A program made the position numbers and the translations under genes. Shown piece after piece: positions 634 to 15,072 of a DNA stretch of 39,594 nt. Within the stretch, counting starts at the first letter, position 1. Every line of letters begins with the position of its first letter. The notes under the pieces were generated by a model. The model was not told the origin of the DNA. It was given only the letters and a program-made list of their open reading frames with translations, and did no database searches. The DNA comes from a virus, in IMG/VR virus record IMGVR_UViG_3300022821_000048, positions 1 through 39,594 of that record; one strand, 5' to 3'.

Positions 634-716
634 TGGAAGCGTACCAGATAACCTTGCTAGTGATGGCAGTCTGCATACTTGCAGGAATGGTGTATAAGAT
701 TTGGTTTGAGGATTAG
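633..716 (+). CDS. 27-residue single-span membrane miniprotein
   Basis: Its ATG overlaps the preceding stop codon (TAATG at 631-635). The product is almost entirely one transmembrane helix (ITLLVMAVCILAGMVY) ending in KIWFED. The overlap suggests translational coupling to the holin-like gene. It could be a second lysis component or a holin modulator. The short length keeps confidence moderate. Confidence 0.5.
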   Translation: MEAYQITLLVMAVCILAGMVYKIWFED

Positions 717-719
717 TTA

Positions 720-750
720 CCACAATACAGCAGATTATGCCATATTGTGG
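720..750. terminator. Hairpin between convergent transcription units
   Basis: CCACAATA (720-727) and TATTGTGG (743-750) form a perfect 8-base-pair stem, with a possible inner GCA/TGC pairing. It lies just after the plus-strand lysis genes and just before the end of the minus-strand block, the expected place for a bidirectional terminator. There is no long T-run on either side, so the function is inferred from structure and position. Confidence 0.45.
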
Positions 751-775
751 AATGTTTATGGCCACAAGCGATTAG

Positions 776-1156
776 TTATAGGTAAGCATAAGTCCCGTAG
801 TTGGCGGACACCCAAACCCCCCTATCAAGCGTTATCGGATTTGTCATTTCAATTTCGTAGCAATGCAAAAAGAAAGGAATATCATTCGCAAAATAAACAC
901 GCTTTTTTATATGTGGAGTGTCCGCACATCTGCAATTTGTTTTAATGAAGTTTTCAAGTTCTAATCTATTTTCAAACTCAAATCCCTTTCTTTTTAATCC
1001 TTCAATTATACAATCATCTAACTGCTTATTGAGTTGAGAAGAAAGCCTACCTATAACATCCGCTATAAGTAATGGCGGGTCTTGTGGTAAGTCAAAGCTT
1101 GTGCGTTCTAATTTCATTTGTGCTAATTTTAAAGTGAGTAGTTCTAAATCCGCCAC
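776..1156 (-). CDS. Conserved-looking hypothetical protein
   Basis: A 126-residue protein from a GTG at 1156; an in-frame ATG at 1117 gives 113 residues beginning MKLERTSF and may be the true start. The sequence is soluble and mixed in character (KQLDDCIIEGLKRKGFEF, then a segment with several Cys near VYFANDIPFFLHCYEIEM). I do not recognise a characterised family. It is the last gene of the leftward block, ending 26 bases from the convergent-unit hairpin. The plus-strand frame here is the weaker alternative. Confidence 0.7.
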   Translation of the reverse strand: MADLELLTLKLAQMKLERTSFDLPQDPPLLIADVIGRLSSQLNKQLDDCIIEGLKRKGFEFENRLELENFIKTNCRCADTPHIKKRVYFANDIPFFLHCYEIEMTNPITLDRGVWVSANYGTYAYL

Positions 1157-1175
1157 TACTCATAGCGGAATGACG

Positions 1176-1310
1176 TTATACCTCGTCCCAAGCCTTCAAT
1201 ATAACCCGTTTAAACGCCTTTACAAACCAGCAGATTAAACCTCCAATGATTAAGCATGGTAATATTACAGCTAACAGGCAAGCGAGGACTTGAATGGTGT
1301 GGTCGGTCAT
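1176..1310 (-). CDS. 44-residue membrane miniprotein
   Basis: Begins MTDHTIQVLA, followed by one long hydrophobic segment (about residues 8-31) and a basic amphipathic tail (KAFKRVILKAW). Its ATG overlaps the stop of the 50-residue gene upstream (ATGA at 1307-1310), a stop-start coupling seen throughout this genome. Function unknown; a membrane role during infection is plausible. Confidence 0.6.
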   Translation of the reverse strand: MTDHTIQVLACLLAVILPCLIIGGLICWFVKAFKRVILKAWDEV

Positions 1311-5031: not shown

Positions 5032-5711
5032 GAGCATCAGGCGGCCACTTCATAGATGGCATTAAAGGGCTAGGTAAAATAGGCGAAACGTATTTAAAAC
5101 AATGGCTTAAAGAAAAGCTATACGCCCGTAGAGAGGATATAAAGTCAAAGTATATCACCAAAGGAAATGTACAGGAGGAAGAGGGATTTACTCTTATGGC
5201 CACAGAGTTAAATCTAGGAATGGTTTATAAAAACGTAGAATACTTCGAAGATGAATATTTTTGCGGAACGCCAGACTTGATAACAACCGATACGGTTTAC
5301 GACAATAAGTGCTCCTGGTCGCTCGCTACGTTTCCTATGTTTGAAACCGAAATTCCTAATCAAGACTATGAAACACAGCTTCAAATCTATATGCACTTGA
5401 CGGGTAAAAAGAAAGCAGTCTTATGTTACACGTTAATTGATGCTGATTACTTTGAAATTCAAAGACAGGCTAAATGGTTAACTAATCCTGACGAAATATA
5501 TCGAATGATTACTAATTTGGTTTATACGAAATACTTTGCCAATGAATTATTTCAAGAGTTTTGCCCGACTTCAACAAGAAAATACTTCATAGAAATACCA
5601 GACAACAAAAGAATCAAAACATTTGAAATTAACTACAATCCTGAAAAAATAGAAAAACTAATAACACGAGTAAAAGAATCACGTAACTTTTTAAACAATT
5701 TAATTAAATAA
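5013..5711 (+). CDS. PD-(D/E)XK exonuclease (lambda exo/RecB-like)
   Basis: A 232-residue protein. Motifs in order: an acidic segment after KG (E55/E56), GTPDL with D88, DNK with D97 and K99 as the (D/E)xK pair, and a downstream Q122 in YETQLQIYMHLTG. This matches the YqaJ/Cas4/RecB nuclease fold used to resect double-strand ends for the annealing protein encoded just upstream. The ATG at 5013 overlaps the previous gene by 19 bases, which suggests coordinated synthesis. Confidence 0.85.
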   Translation: MESFKIRASGGHFIDGIKGLGKIGETYLKQWLKEKLYARREDIKSKYITKGNVQEEEGFTLMATELNLGMVYKNVEYFEDEYFCGTPDLITTDTVYDNKCSWSLATFPMFETEIPNQDYETQLQIYMHLTGKKKAVLCYTLIDADYFEIQRQAKWLTNPDEIYRMITNLVYTKYFANELFQEFCPTSTRKYFIEIPDNKRIKTFEINYNPEKIEKLITRVKESRNFLNNLIK

Positions 5712-12551: not shown

Positions 12552-12739
12552 AAATACCCAAAATAATAAACAAGGCTGAGCTAGCCGCTGAAATGTTTCC
12601 AAATAGCACCAGGCCCAGGCAGTTGCTATACAACAAGGAAAATAACATTTCCGGTGCCAGATTTACAGAGAACGATTTTTTGAAGATGAAAGCTATCATA
12701 AAAATCCATATAGGTAGGTTTGTCATAGAAATGTCATAA
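12548..12739 (+). CDS. 63-residue hypothetical protein
   Basis: Begins MKIPKIINKAELAAEMFPNS; the middle (RQLLYNKENNISGARFTEND) suggests a small DNA-binding helical domain, but no family is recognised. It is the last gene of the long early operon before the promoter at 12753. Confidence 0.55.
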   Translation: MKIPKIINKAELAAEMFPNSTRPRQLLYNKENNISGARFTENDFLKMKAIIKIHIGRFVIEMS

Positions 12740-12752
12740 AGTATAATAACTA

Positions 12753-12783
12753 TTGACAAGAGTCTATATATATGTTATCTTTA
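12753..12783 (+). promoter_or_regulatory. Bacteroidota-type promoter
   Basis: TTG at 12753-12755, 20 bases, then TATCTTTA at 12776-12783, one mismatch from the TAnnTTTG -7 box. Predicted start about 12790, giving a short leader to the ATG at 12807. It separates the following genes from the early operon. Confidence 0.55.
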
Positions 12784-12806
12784 TACTATACAAAGAAACA
12801 AAGATC

Positions 12807-13106
12807 ATGAAAAAGTTTAGCAAAGCATTTGGAGAAGTAGAGGTTATAAGCGAAGATAAAAACGTAACTGTTATTGTCATAATAGCAACAGGAGAGCAAA
12901 AAAAATTAGCAACTCCTTATGCTAACCTTTCAAGCGAGCCTTTTGTAAAAGTGGTTACTAAAAAAGTAGTAACAGTTCAAAGAGAGTTAACCAAAGAAGA
13001 AAAAGATCATTTAGAGTACATATCTCCAAAATTAGATTGGATAGAGGAAAGAAGCAGAAGAGATAGAAAAGCCGGAAGATCAGGCGGTATATCAATATGG
13101 AAATAA
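12807..13106 (+). CDS. 99-residue hypothetical protein
   Basis: Starts at the ATG at 12807, downstream of its own promoter; an upstream in-frame start at 12753 would begin inside the -33 box and is rejected. The N-terminal half is beta-rich (GEVEVISEDKNVTVIVIIAT), and the C-terminal half is charged, ending RRDRKAGRSGGISIWK. Family unknown. Confidence 0.6.
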   Translation: MKKFSKAFGEVEVISEDKNVTVIVIIATGEQKKLATPYANLSSEPFVKVVTKKVVTVQRELTKEEKDHLEYISPKLDWIEERSRRDRKAGRSGGISIWK

Positions 13107-13131
13107 TTTAAACCATTAAAACTTAGCAATC

Positions 13132-13455
13132 ATGAAAACAACAACCAAAGCAATCGTAATTAAAAAATTAGAGAAATTACCAAGTGTGGAAATAGTTTCT
13201 CAATGGGGGATTTATAAGCCTTTCAAAAAGTCAACCGTAGCATATAAAATGGTTGAAGAATTTCTAAGGAATACTACAAAAGCAATAAGGCCATGTTATA
13301 CATCTGGTAGTGGTAGGTTTACGAGTAACCAAGATCATACCGTAGCAGTAAGAAAAATAATAGATGCATTAGGTCTTGATTATACTATCGAAAATGATGC
13401 CCCTCGTGGAGGTGTAGGCGGTACGCTTATTGTTTTTACGACTAAATTTAGATAA
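13132..13455 (+). CDS. 107-residue hypothetical protein, full-length paralogue of 14289-14390
   Basis: Basic, with the C-terminal segment LGLDYTIENDAP, then GGVGGTLIVFTTKFR. Its last 30 residues resemble the 33-residue ORF at 14289 (LG, ND, A, RG, VxG, LI, TTKxR shared). The stop codon lies inside the 35-base direct repeat 13450-13484. No family is recognised. Confidence 0.65.
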   Translation: MKTTTKAIVIKKLEKLPSVEIVSQWGIYKPFKKSTVAYKMVEEFLRNTTKAIRPCYTSGSGRFTSNQDHTVAVRKIIDALGLDYTIENDAPRGGVGGTLIVFTTKFR

Positions 13456-13484
13456 CCCTTCAAGCTCTGCAAGGTCTTACAGGA
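13450..13484 (+). repeat. 35-base direct repeat, left copy
   Basis: Identical to 14385-14419, 935 bases away. It covers the last codon and stop of the 107-residue gene and the following 29 bases (CCCTTCAAGCTCTGCAAGG and on). The bases outside differ, so the repeat edges are sharp. It bounds the cassette-like segment. Confidence 0.95.
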
Positions 13485-13486
13485 TT

Positions 13487-13560
13487 ACGTAACCGTAAAC
13501 TTTCGGATTTGCACCAAATTTGATGCGATATGCTAAATAATTTTATGTTTTATATTACGT
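13487..13560. repeat. Degenerate attC-like palindrome
   Basis: ACGTAACCGTAAAC (13487-13500) and GTTTTATATTACGT (13547-13560) are complementary at 10 of 14 positions. The right arm closely resembles the matching arm of the site at 14031-14059. A smaller palindrome GCACCAAATTTGATGC (13511-13526, one mismatched pair) lies between. It abuts the direct repeat on the left and the first GTT core on the right. Confidence 0.4.
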
Positions 13561-13580
13561 GTTACCAAATCGTTTTAATG

Positions 13581-13680
13581 TTTGGTAACGGTTGGGTGTA
13601 TGAGTAGTGTGGTTTTATACACACATTCAACTTATAAATAAATTTATTAACCACATTACTTATACACTTTGTTATAGGTA
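13581..13680. repeat. attC-like site A
   Basis: Inverse core TTTGGTAAC (13581-13589), an unpaired spacer of seven bases, then an 18-base arm 13597-13614 that pairs with 13649-13666 (16 of 18 Watson-Crick, two G.T), a short unpaired spacer, then the next core GTTATAGGTA (13671-13680). The order inverse core, arm, loop, arm, core is that of an attC recombination site, and the outer cores belong to neighbouring cassettes. Confidence 0.55.
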
Positions 13681-13696
13681 TGTAAAATTTAATTTT

Positions 13697-13924
13697 ATGA
13701 TACAAATACCAATACCGTTGAGAGATGAATTTAAGGATAAAGTAAAAAACTTTTGTTCTTCTAATAATATAGACTGGGGAACTGTTTATAGTGAATGTTT
13801 AAATGAAGGTGTTAGTGGAACACAAGAACAGATTAGGTTAGTAGAAGATTACATAGAAGAATTAGAACAAGAACGATTGAACTACAGAAAGAACAAAAGT
13901 TTTTGGTGGAGGATATGGAATTAA
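13697..13924 (+). CDS. Cassette ORF 1, 75-residue hypothetical protein
   Basis: Starts at the ATG at 13697 (MIQIPIPLRDEFKDKVKNFC); a longer in-frame start at 13607 would run through the attC-like site and is rejected. It is mostly helical and acidic, ending RKNKSFWWRIWN. The ORF begins 16 bases after the GTTATAGGTA core and its stop lies in the inverted repeat before the inverse core at 13932, the compact layout of an integron cassette. Function unknown; such cassette proteins are often novel. Confidence 0.65.
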   Translation: MIQIPIPLRDEFKDKVKNFCSSNNIDWGTVYSECLNEGVSGTQEQIRLVEDYIEELEQERLNYRKNKSFWWRIWN

Positions 13925-13931
13925 ATTTTAT

Positions 13932-14059
13932 TACCTATAACGGTTTGTATATGAAACGTTGCAGACCGAAACTAAATAGATAAACACAAAGAATTGAATT
14001 ATTAATAAACTTTAAAAAAAGACCACTAAAGCAATGTTTTATATACGTTGTTATGTGGC
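13932..14059. repeat. attC-like site B
   Basis: Inverse core TACCTATAAC (13932-13941), spacer, arm GTATATGAAACGTTGC (13947-13962) pairing with GCAATGTTTTATATAC (14031-14046) at 14 of 16 plus two G.T, spacer, then the next core GTTATGTGGC (14050-14059). The central loop is about 68 bases. The right arm resembles that of the degenerate site at 13547-13560. Confidence 0.6.
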
Positions 14060-14069
14060 GTTAATTATT

Positions 14070-14201
14070 ATGAAAGCAAACGAACCAATGAGTTGGACAA
14101 AAAAGCAAACGCAACAATACGGACTATTTTTAGCTGGACTTGGTGCTTTTATTGGCAGTTTAATTACTTATGGATTGATGAAAATTATTCCTTTACTGTA
14201 A
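14070..14201 (+). CDS. Cassette ORF 2, 43-residue membrane protein
   Basis: Begins MKANEPMSWTKKQTQQYG, followed by a hydrophobic helix (LFLAGLGAFIGSLITYGLMK). The ATG lies 10 bases after the GTTATGTGGC core and the TAA ends one base before the inverse core GCCACATAAC. The ORF fills the segment, which supports both the gene and the cassette reading. Function unknown. Confidence 0.65.
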   Translation: MKANEPMSWTKKQTQQYGLFLAGLGAFIGSLITYGLMKIIPLL

Positions 14202-14202
14202 T

Positions 14203-14212
14203 GCCACATAAC
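14203..14212. repeat. Inverse core of the last cassette (truncated attC-like site)
   Basis: GCCACATAAC is the exact reverse complement of the core at 14050-14059. The following bases (TAGTCGCTTGGAGC) look like the left arm of an attC-like site, but no matching right arm is found before the paralogue fragment at 14289. A short hairpin ACTACCT/AGGTGGT follows at about 14251-14271. The right half of this site seems to have been lost. Confidence 0.5.
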
Positions 14213-14288
14213 TAGTCGCTTGGAGCTACAAACATTCCCTAATACAACACACTACCTTTATGTTTAGGTGGTAATTAATCAAACAACC

Positions 14289-14390
14289 ATGATTTTAAAT
14301 AAATTAGGTATCGAGTTTGTTTTGTCAAATGATGCTATAAGAGGATCAGTCACGGGAAACTTAATTACCATAACGACTAAGATAAGATAA
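14289..14390 (+). pseudogene. 33-codon 3' fragment paralogous to the 13132-13455 gene
   Basis: Reads MILNKLGIEFVLSNDAIR and on to ITITTKIR. It aligns with the last 30 residues of the 107-residue protein but is diverged, so it is not a recent copy. Only the end of the gene is present; the rest appears to have been replaced by the cassette segment. It ends inside the right copy of the 35-base repeat. An ATG with an A-rich leader means it may still be translated. Confidence 0.55.
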
Positions 14391-14419
14391 CCCTTCAAGC
14401 TCTGCAAGGTCTTACAGGA
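14385..14419 (+). repeat. 35-base direct repeat, right copy
   Basis: Exact copy of 13450-13484, again covering the last codons and stop of a paralogous gene. Two bases downstream starts an intrinsic terminator, which the left copy lacks. This suggests that the left copy was separated from its terminator by the inserted segment. Confidence 0.95.
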
Positions 14420-14421
14420 CA

Positions 14422-14447
14422 CCCGGTCAGAAATGATCGGGTTTTTT
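14422..14447 (+). terminator. Intrinsic terminator
   Basis: CCCGGTC (14422-14428) pairs with GATCGGG (14435-14441) around the loop AGAAAT (one G.T pair), followed by six T residues. It ends the unit upstream of the ParB-like gene. Confidence 0.85.
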
Positions 14448-14463
14448 AATGTGAAAAAATGTT

Positions 14464-14471
14464 TATCTTTG
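14464..14471 (+). promoter_or_regulatory. Consensus -7 promoter box four bases from a start codon
   Basis: TATCTTTG matches the Bacteroidota -7 box TAnnTTTG exactly. The upstream position expected for the -33 box falls in the T-run of the terminator. Only four bases separate the box from the ATG at 14476, so the transcript would have almost no leader. Confidence 0.6.
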
Positions 14472-14475
14472 AACT

Positions 14476-15072
14476 ATGAGCAAAATATCGGATTTAATAT
14501 TTGACGATAAGAATTTCAATAAAGGTACTGCATCGGGTAAAAACTTGATGCAAAAATCTTTAAGTAAATTCGGGGCAGGTCGTAGTGTATTGGTAGACAA
14601 GTCGAATAATATTATTGCAGGAAATAAAACCGTTGAGAACTTTAAAGAATTAGGGTATAATAAAATAAATATTATTGACTCTGATAAAGATACGTTGGTA
14701 GTTGTTAGACGTAACGATATTGATTTAGATACACCCGAAGGCAGGGAATTCGCCTTGGCAGACAACCAAACAGCAAAAGTTAACATTGATTTTGATTTTG
14801 ATATACTGGGGGAGGAACTTGAAGAAGGTACTTTGGAGGAGTGGGGTTTAGAAAATGAAACACAAGTTGATTATTCTTTATTAGACGCTGATAGCGATAT
14901 TGACAACCAAATTAATGAAATGACTAATGGTGTTAAAAAAGGAGTTCAAATAGAATTTGAACCCGAACATTATGAAGAAGCGTACTCACTTGTAAAGTTT
15001 TGGCGTGATCAAGATGCTTATGTAGGTAAAATGATATTGGATTTTTTGAAAGCTGAAAAAAATAATATATGA
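14476..15072 (+). CDS. ParB/Srx-like domain protein
   Basis: A 198-residue protein. The N-terminal part NFNKGTASGKNLMQKSL, RSVLVDKSNNIIAGNKT (the box around residues 46-51) and ALADNQTAKV (about 94-102) match phage ParB-like nuclease-fold proteins, which are commonly fused to or followed by DNA methylases. The C-terminal part is acidic (EELEEGTLEEWGLE). It overlaps the FkbM methyltransferase start by four bases. Its role may be to guide or regulate modification of phage DNA; that is inferred from the neighbours. Confidence 0.75.
   Translation: MSKISDLIFDDKNFNKGTASGKNLMQKSLSKFGAGRSVLVDKSNNIIAGNKTVENFKELGYNKINIIDSDKDTLVVVRRNDIDLDTPEGREFALADNQTAKVNIDFDFDILGEELEEGTLEEWGLENETQVDYSLLDADSDIDNQINEMTNGVKKGVQIEFEPEHYEEAYSLVKFWRDQDAYVGKMILDFLKAEKNNI

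Follow-up and report, generated by a model that had tools for sequence, protein, structure and literature searches.

The phage genome analysed here (the window; IMG/VR record IMGVR_UViG_3300022821_000048, 39,594 nt) very probably carries two integrase-less cassette arrays that stem from a phage-encoded integron system and were acquired in trans. The window is a phage related to Flavobacterium phage 11b: a direct repeat of 127 nt is present at its termini, it encodes an HK97-type capsid protein, and its TerL is 56% identical to that of phage 11b and 36% identical to that of Polaribacter phage P12002L. A profile search found no tyrosine recombinase of the PF00589 family anywhere in the 39.6-kb record, while two attC sites, attC1 and attC2, are situated approximately 265 nt apart. 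With at least two close attC sites and no integron integrase nearby, the window taken alone is a CALIN, an integrase-less cassette cluster such as Qi et al. (2023) have described from phages. The preliminary description of this DNA had proposed that the phage holds an array of integron-like cassettes but no integrase, and the proposal is supported by the missing PF00589 match, the phage genes and the attC sites, which are matched both by a covariance model and by close relatives.

Two cassette arrays and their putative acceptor sites

Array 1 (13545-14238, plus strand; Table 1) is located between the genes at 13132-13455 and 14476-15072 and is ordered as an attC remnant, a 29-nt unit, attC1, cassette 1, attC2, cassette 2 and a 26-nt sequence, so that two cassettes and an ORF-less unit accompany two complete attC-like sites, and an integrase is absent. 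The three GTT...AAC segments with exact inverse cores noted earlier are indeed present, as are the long imperfect palindromes, the arms of which agree at 89% in attC1 (13596-13614 with 13649-13667) and at 88% in attC2 (13947-13962 with 14031-14046); the first of the three segments, however, is an ORF-less 29-nt unit and not an ordinary cassette. The reading of this hairpin as a cassette was dropped once its loop, TCGTTTTAATG, matched the conserved loop of a known short attC type (L018, L036, L042), and an analogue of the unit, GTTATAAAATCGTTTTAATGTTTTATAAC, adjoins the attI in L143. No 5′ arm was found for the attC remnant at 13545-13560.

In cassette 1, imperfect pairing extends for approximately 24 bp, and the same type of cassette start is also found in about 25 viral loci. 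The cassette-1 ORF has a relative with 42% identity in the phage contig L003, and the cassette-2 core is also found in L149 and L231; neither the cassette-1 ORF nor the cassette-2 ORF has a match in Pfam, and Rfam gave no convincing family match over 12700-14600. The cassette-1 ORF also contains a perfect 16-bp inverted repeat (13745-13760 and 13889-13904), of which the L003 relative keeps 15 bp (near 5047-5061 and 5187-5201) despite the 42% protein identity. Array 1 is furthermore flanked by a 47-nt direct repeat, 94% identical, at 13438-13484 and 14373-14419, which corresponds to the 3′ end of the gene at 13132-13455 with its flank and recurs after a 33-codon fragment resembling the C-terminus of that gene.

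A second array, overlooked in the preliminary description, is located on the minus strand at 775-1177 and was discovered through a weak match of the covariance model at 1064-1164. Over 135 nt its attC and core share 84% identity with L137/L145, from contig G026. Both arrays in the window terminate at a 26-nt sequence, the two copies of which are identical at 21 of 26 positions, and as judged from sequence these appear to serve as attI-like acceptors in a phage lacking its own recombinase. The 26-nt acceptor is absent from the other viral contigs searched and from the INPHARED phages. The likeness of the regions around the two copies (690-774, minus strand, and 14213-14290, plus strand) seems to extend beyond the 26 nt, with a hairpin of differing sequence followed by GTGGTAAYTAATC. 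The comparison of terminase relatives yielded no relative with an empty site for either array, the flanking genes being too seldom conserved, and the 31 relatives gave one attC match altogether (L072).

Table 1 Features of the two cassette arrays in the window.
Feature	Position	Strand	Basis or remark
Probable 3′-arm remnant of a truncated attC	13545-13560	+	Weak; 13545-13564 is 80% identical to the attC2 3′ arm (14034-14053)
ORF-less 29-nt unit, GTTACCAAATCGTTTTAATGTTTGGTAAC	13561-13589	+	Ends GTTACCAAA/TTTGGTAAC
attC1	13587-13673	+	16-bp stem, unpaired spacers; covariance model R1; belongs to the downstream ORF
Cassette 1 body, GTTATAGGTATG...TTACCTATAAC	13671-13941	+	Exact inverse cores GTTATAGGTA/TACCTATAAC
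Cassette-1 ORF, 75 aa, function not assigned	13697-13924	+	Sequence
attC2, longer type, ~114 nt	13939-14052	+	Identity to the attC of L231/L237
Cassette 2 body, GTTATGTGGC...GCCACATAAC	14050-14212	+	Exact inverse cores
Cassette-2 ORF, 43 aa, one apparent membrane-spanning stretch	14070-14201	+	Sequence inspected by eye
Putative attI-like acceptor, copy A, TAGTCGCTTGGAGCTACAAACATTCC	14213-14238	+	Immediately after the last AAC of array 1
Putative attI-like acceptor, copy B, TAATCGCTTGTGGCCATAAACATTCC	749-774	-	Immediately after the last AAC of array 2
Cassette body of array 2, GTTATAGGTA...TACCTATAAC	775-1057	-	Core pair same as in cassette 1
ORF of array 2, 113 aa	776-1117	-	Start codon within the attC loop
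attC of array 2	1055-1177	-	Sequence

The attC sites and the strand that folds

The attC covariance search proposed in the preliminary description was carried out with a model of our own, R1, for which 18 attCs from other viral contigs were used and those of the window left out. The model matched 13587-13673 on the plus strand with 73.7 bits (E 6.8e-14), as opposed to 10.7 bits for the same place on the minus strand, and its next-best place in the window had an E value of 0.42. The attC2 region (13939-14065) scored 12 bits with R1, attC2 being of a different size class from the model; over 134 nt it shares 88.8% identity with the attC in L231/L237, where a cassette with the attC2-like attC and the core GTTATGTGGC directly abuts the attI-like site belonging to a phage recombinase. 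The stem arms of attC1 are near-identical in L149, L143 and L226, all of which are recombinase-bearing arrays, and overall the attCs of the window show roughly 84-92% identity to attCs in such arrays. Counting of inverse pairs against shuffled sequences (2 pairs on the plus strand versus 0.6 expected) is weak on its own.

The attC consensus consists of a 16-bp stem with compensatory changes at 13 of the 16 pairs and contains two G.U-rich positions, at one of which G.U is kept in 15 of 18 sequences. Since G.U pairs become A.C mismatches on the opposite strand, the conserved G.U together with the compensatory changes suggests that the attC hairpin folds from the ORF-sense strand, which also gives the more stable fold in 52 of 65 attC sites. 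The arm mismatches in the window, all of them G.T on the plus strand and raised as a caveat in the preliminary description, are informative in this respect and would be explained by folding of the ORF-sense strand. On the same structural grounds, compensatory pairs and strand-specific G.U, the ORF-sense strand is probably the recombination substrate. In one attC type (L223 2206-2331 and 2597-2722, L005, L025) the loop contains two tRNA-like stretches, GGTTCGATTCC and GGTTCGACTCC, in which ARAGORN calls no tRNA.

Recombinase-bearing arrays in other viral contigs

Related arrays, the search for which had likewise been proposed, were found in large number in viral contigs. A pattern search with the start of cassette 1 returned 44 stretches, about 25 of them with an exact inverse core downstream, and several viral contigs carry arrays of 5-16 cassettes. 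Nine array-bearing contigs encode a tyrosine recombinase of approximately 270 aa, mostly at the end of the array, and an alignment of nine recombinases of this kind retrieved 222 relatives in viral contigs, 80 of which were fetched. In 60 of the 71 loci with enough upstream sequence the array, of 1-12 cassettes, terminates at an attI-like site within 100 nt of the recombinase gene. The junction AAC/TATTATATATA is conserved in 77 of 79 recombinase loci versus 9% of random stretches and is likely used as attI. By sequence, many other phages hold the complete system, composed of a tyrosine recombinase of approximately 267 aa, an attI-like site just upstream of its gene and an array of attC-plus-ORF units ending there; as in integrons, the putative attI is located between the recombinase and the array, and the array begins at it. 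The chain finder also yields spurious long-segment chains, and the conclusions here use high-scoring chains with ORF-filled cassettes.

Cassettes of the window type are found in many IMG/VR contigs, including contigs of 115 and 246 kb with a T4-type capsid gene. The T4-type major capsid protein was recognized in G019 (E 5.5e-78) and in the 246-kb G026 (E 1.3e-34), both of which carry a recombinase and an array, and also in related array-carrying phages of 429 and 462 kb, while G015 and G004 contain phage replication and lysis-control genes. Searches with Terminase_6N and Gp23 were negative for most of these contigs, so that the phage identity of the remaining ones rests on IMG/VR or on other genes; the recombinase-bearing contigs are mostly metagenomic, with the T4-type capsid confirmed in two, and some could be misassigned. 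The 12-cassette array at L017 1034-9374 (G006, 169 kb) contains five N6/N4 DNA methyltransferase genes, which are probably counter-restriction cargo. Arrays at L151 7848-8655 (G024) and L152 7667-8573 (G006) stand beside tyrosine recombinases outside the main phage clade, so that recombinases from several lineages may act on these cassettes.

The polarity of the cassettes differs between the two kinds of arrays. In the phage arrays 198 ORFs face the recombinase and 10 face away from it, whereas the same kind of script counted 0 towards and 25 away in bacterial IntI integrons, and in a class 1 integron used as control the ORFs were likewise divergent from the integrase. Relative to the orientation of the recombinase gene the attCs of both groups read AACG...TTGTT, and therefore it is the ORFs that are turned in the phage arrays, not the sites. 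Where the same cassette was present in two arrays, the upstream attC was common in 9 pairs and the downstream attC alone in none; against this, one cassette body is paired with a different attC (L036). Among the cassettes with a long attC, the ORF starts inside the attC in 64 of 102, compared to a mean of 42% and a maximum of 52% upon swapping of the attCs. As the upstream attC is co-inherited with the ORF and many ORFs start within it, the cassette unit is the attC followed by the ORF. This departs from the usual, although not absolute, integron rule that an ORF comes before its attC, with transcription leading away from attI, and because the attC comes first each cassette brings its own 5′ region.

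The phage recombinase has no counterpart of the specific insert that marks the IntI-family integrases. Against the integron integrase model TIGR02249 the phage proteins score approximately 138-155 bits, below the cut-off of 265, in two stretches around the insert, and the alignment to the Vibrio IntI4 structure 2A3V likewise falls into two pieces with the intervening insert missing from the phage protein. A tree of 81 sequences places the phage recombinases in one clade (99/93) apart from IntI (100/100), although a constraint joining the phage clade with IntI gives p 0.18 and the separation is not significant. Bacterial homologues with 42-50% identity were considered as the true home of the system, but no arrays were found beside the 30 examined.

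Origin of the cassettes and relation to known integrons

Lacking a recombinase, the window phage probably received its cassettes in trans, and the question becomes which pool they came from. They could form an ordinary CALIN, with cassettes taken from an integron of the bacterial host and moved by the host IntI, and nothing about them specific to phages. IntI integrons are a frequent feature of the phylum sampled, with 70 of 247 genomes carrying them, and an attC of P12002L was recombined by IntI1 in E. coli (PMC9892861). Such an origin nevertheless seems unlikely, as the cassette-1 start is nearly missing from a 257-Gb genome collection, where the scan gave two stretches, one a chance match and the other a true one in a phage-like contig, yet it occurs in more than 20 viral contigs; moreover, the bacterial arrays of the phylum show the opposite ORF direction and other attC sequences, while the attCs of the window closely match those of phage arrays. 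The earlier suggestion that the phage picks up integron cassettes is thus upheld, with the amendment that the cassettes seem to come from other phages and not from Bacteroidota chromosomes.

Exchange of a different kind could have produced similar arrays if the phage recombinase were a phage or plasmid integrase standing at the array end by chance and the likeness of the attCs let cassettes be exchanged by homologous recombination, for which the attC families are similar enough and of which the cassette body with a different attC in L036 could be an instance. This is very improbable, given that homologous exchange would not predict the co-location in 60 of 71 loci, the junction motif in 77 of 79 or the exact core match within each cassette. 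Scarcely credible is the reading in which the segments are MITEs or other small transposons bounded by terminal inverted repeats, with the palindromes unrelated to them; the inverse complementarity does reach approximately 24 bp into the cassette and exceeds a classical R box, but the ends vary between cassettes and match within each, and the units stand in tandem with covarying palindromes between them, abutting a recombinase and an attI-like site. Nor did the inverted pairs turn out to be transposon ends common to unrelated loci, the outcome that would have spoken against a cassette array.

In the reading preferred here, of cassettes from a phage-encoded system, the recombinase would join two AA/C sites and thereby excise a cassette as a circle, which could then be inserted at attI or at another attC in the manner of IntI. 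That the phage recombinase moves the cassettes is likely from the arrangement of the loci. For the window phage, insertion would have taken place in trans, either through the recombinase of a co-infecting phage or through an IntI of the host, next to the two copies of its own attI-like sequence.

Among the known systems, the closest to the window are the CALINs of the virulent phages P12002L, Tetrasphaera TJE1 and Pseudoalteromonas PH101 (Qi et al. 2023, PMC9892861), which likewise consist of attC cassettes without an integrase; P12002L, a distant relative by TerL, also shares the short attC loop TCGTTTTAATG with the window. That study found complete integrons solely in temperate phages (Vibrio, P1, Shewanella), and its available part describes no phage-specific recombinase clade, attI or inverted polarity. 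A literature search, with most subscription papers and preprints outside it, returned no account of recombinase-bearing phage arrays or inverted cassettes. The phage systems resemble classical integrons in that the 5′ end of the recombinase gene is at attI, where the array begins, in the AACG...TTGTT ends of the attC hairpin with the same polarity to the gene and in the exact core pairing within cassettes. In contrast to class 1 integrons and the Vibrio superintegron, the ORFs face attI and the recombinase, which is of another clade and shorter (~267 aa, insert missing), and the array-to-gene distance is approximately 50 nt instead of 220 nt. The "reverse" integrons of Treponema denticola (PMC3607928, PMC7691350) are similar in that the recombinase and the cassette ORFs are transcribed in the same direction; there, however, intI is turned and points at attI while the cassettes keep the ORF-then-attC order, whereas in the phage systems the recombinase gene keeps its customary place and it is the ORFs that are reversed.

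Altogether, the arrays suggest that phages possess their own integron-like system for swapping genes, in which the genes are oriented opposite to those of bacterial integrons. A wider proposal, which we find nearly evenly poised but leaning towards doubt, would be that phages evolved an IntI-independent integron lineage with a short recombinase, its own attI and the attC as a 5′ module that often provides the N-terminal coding start, and that integrase-less phages share its pool in trans via dedicated acceptors.

Integrons are known as bacterial platforms, and to our knowledge the phage examples are few and partly taken from host integrons. If the present interpretation is true, there would be a platform specific to phages, with over 200 relatives among viruses, reversed cassettes and a recombinase that falls short of the usual integron model in length, which would explain the shuffling of small accessory genes, including those of DNA methyltransferases, in large phages. 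IntegronFinder-type searches look for the C-terminal region of IntI and are expected to miss the complete phage systems. Such systems would also provide a natural test of the integron definition, namely whether an integron requires the IntI insert and an ORF that precedes its attC.
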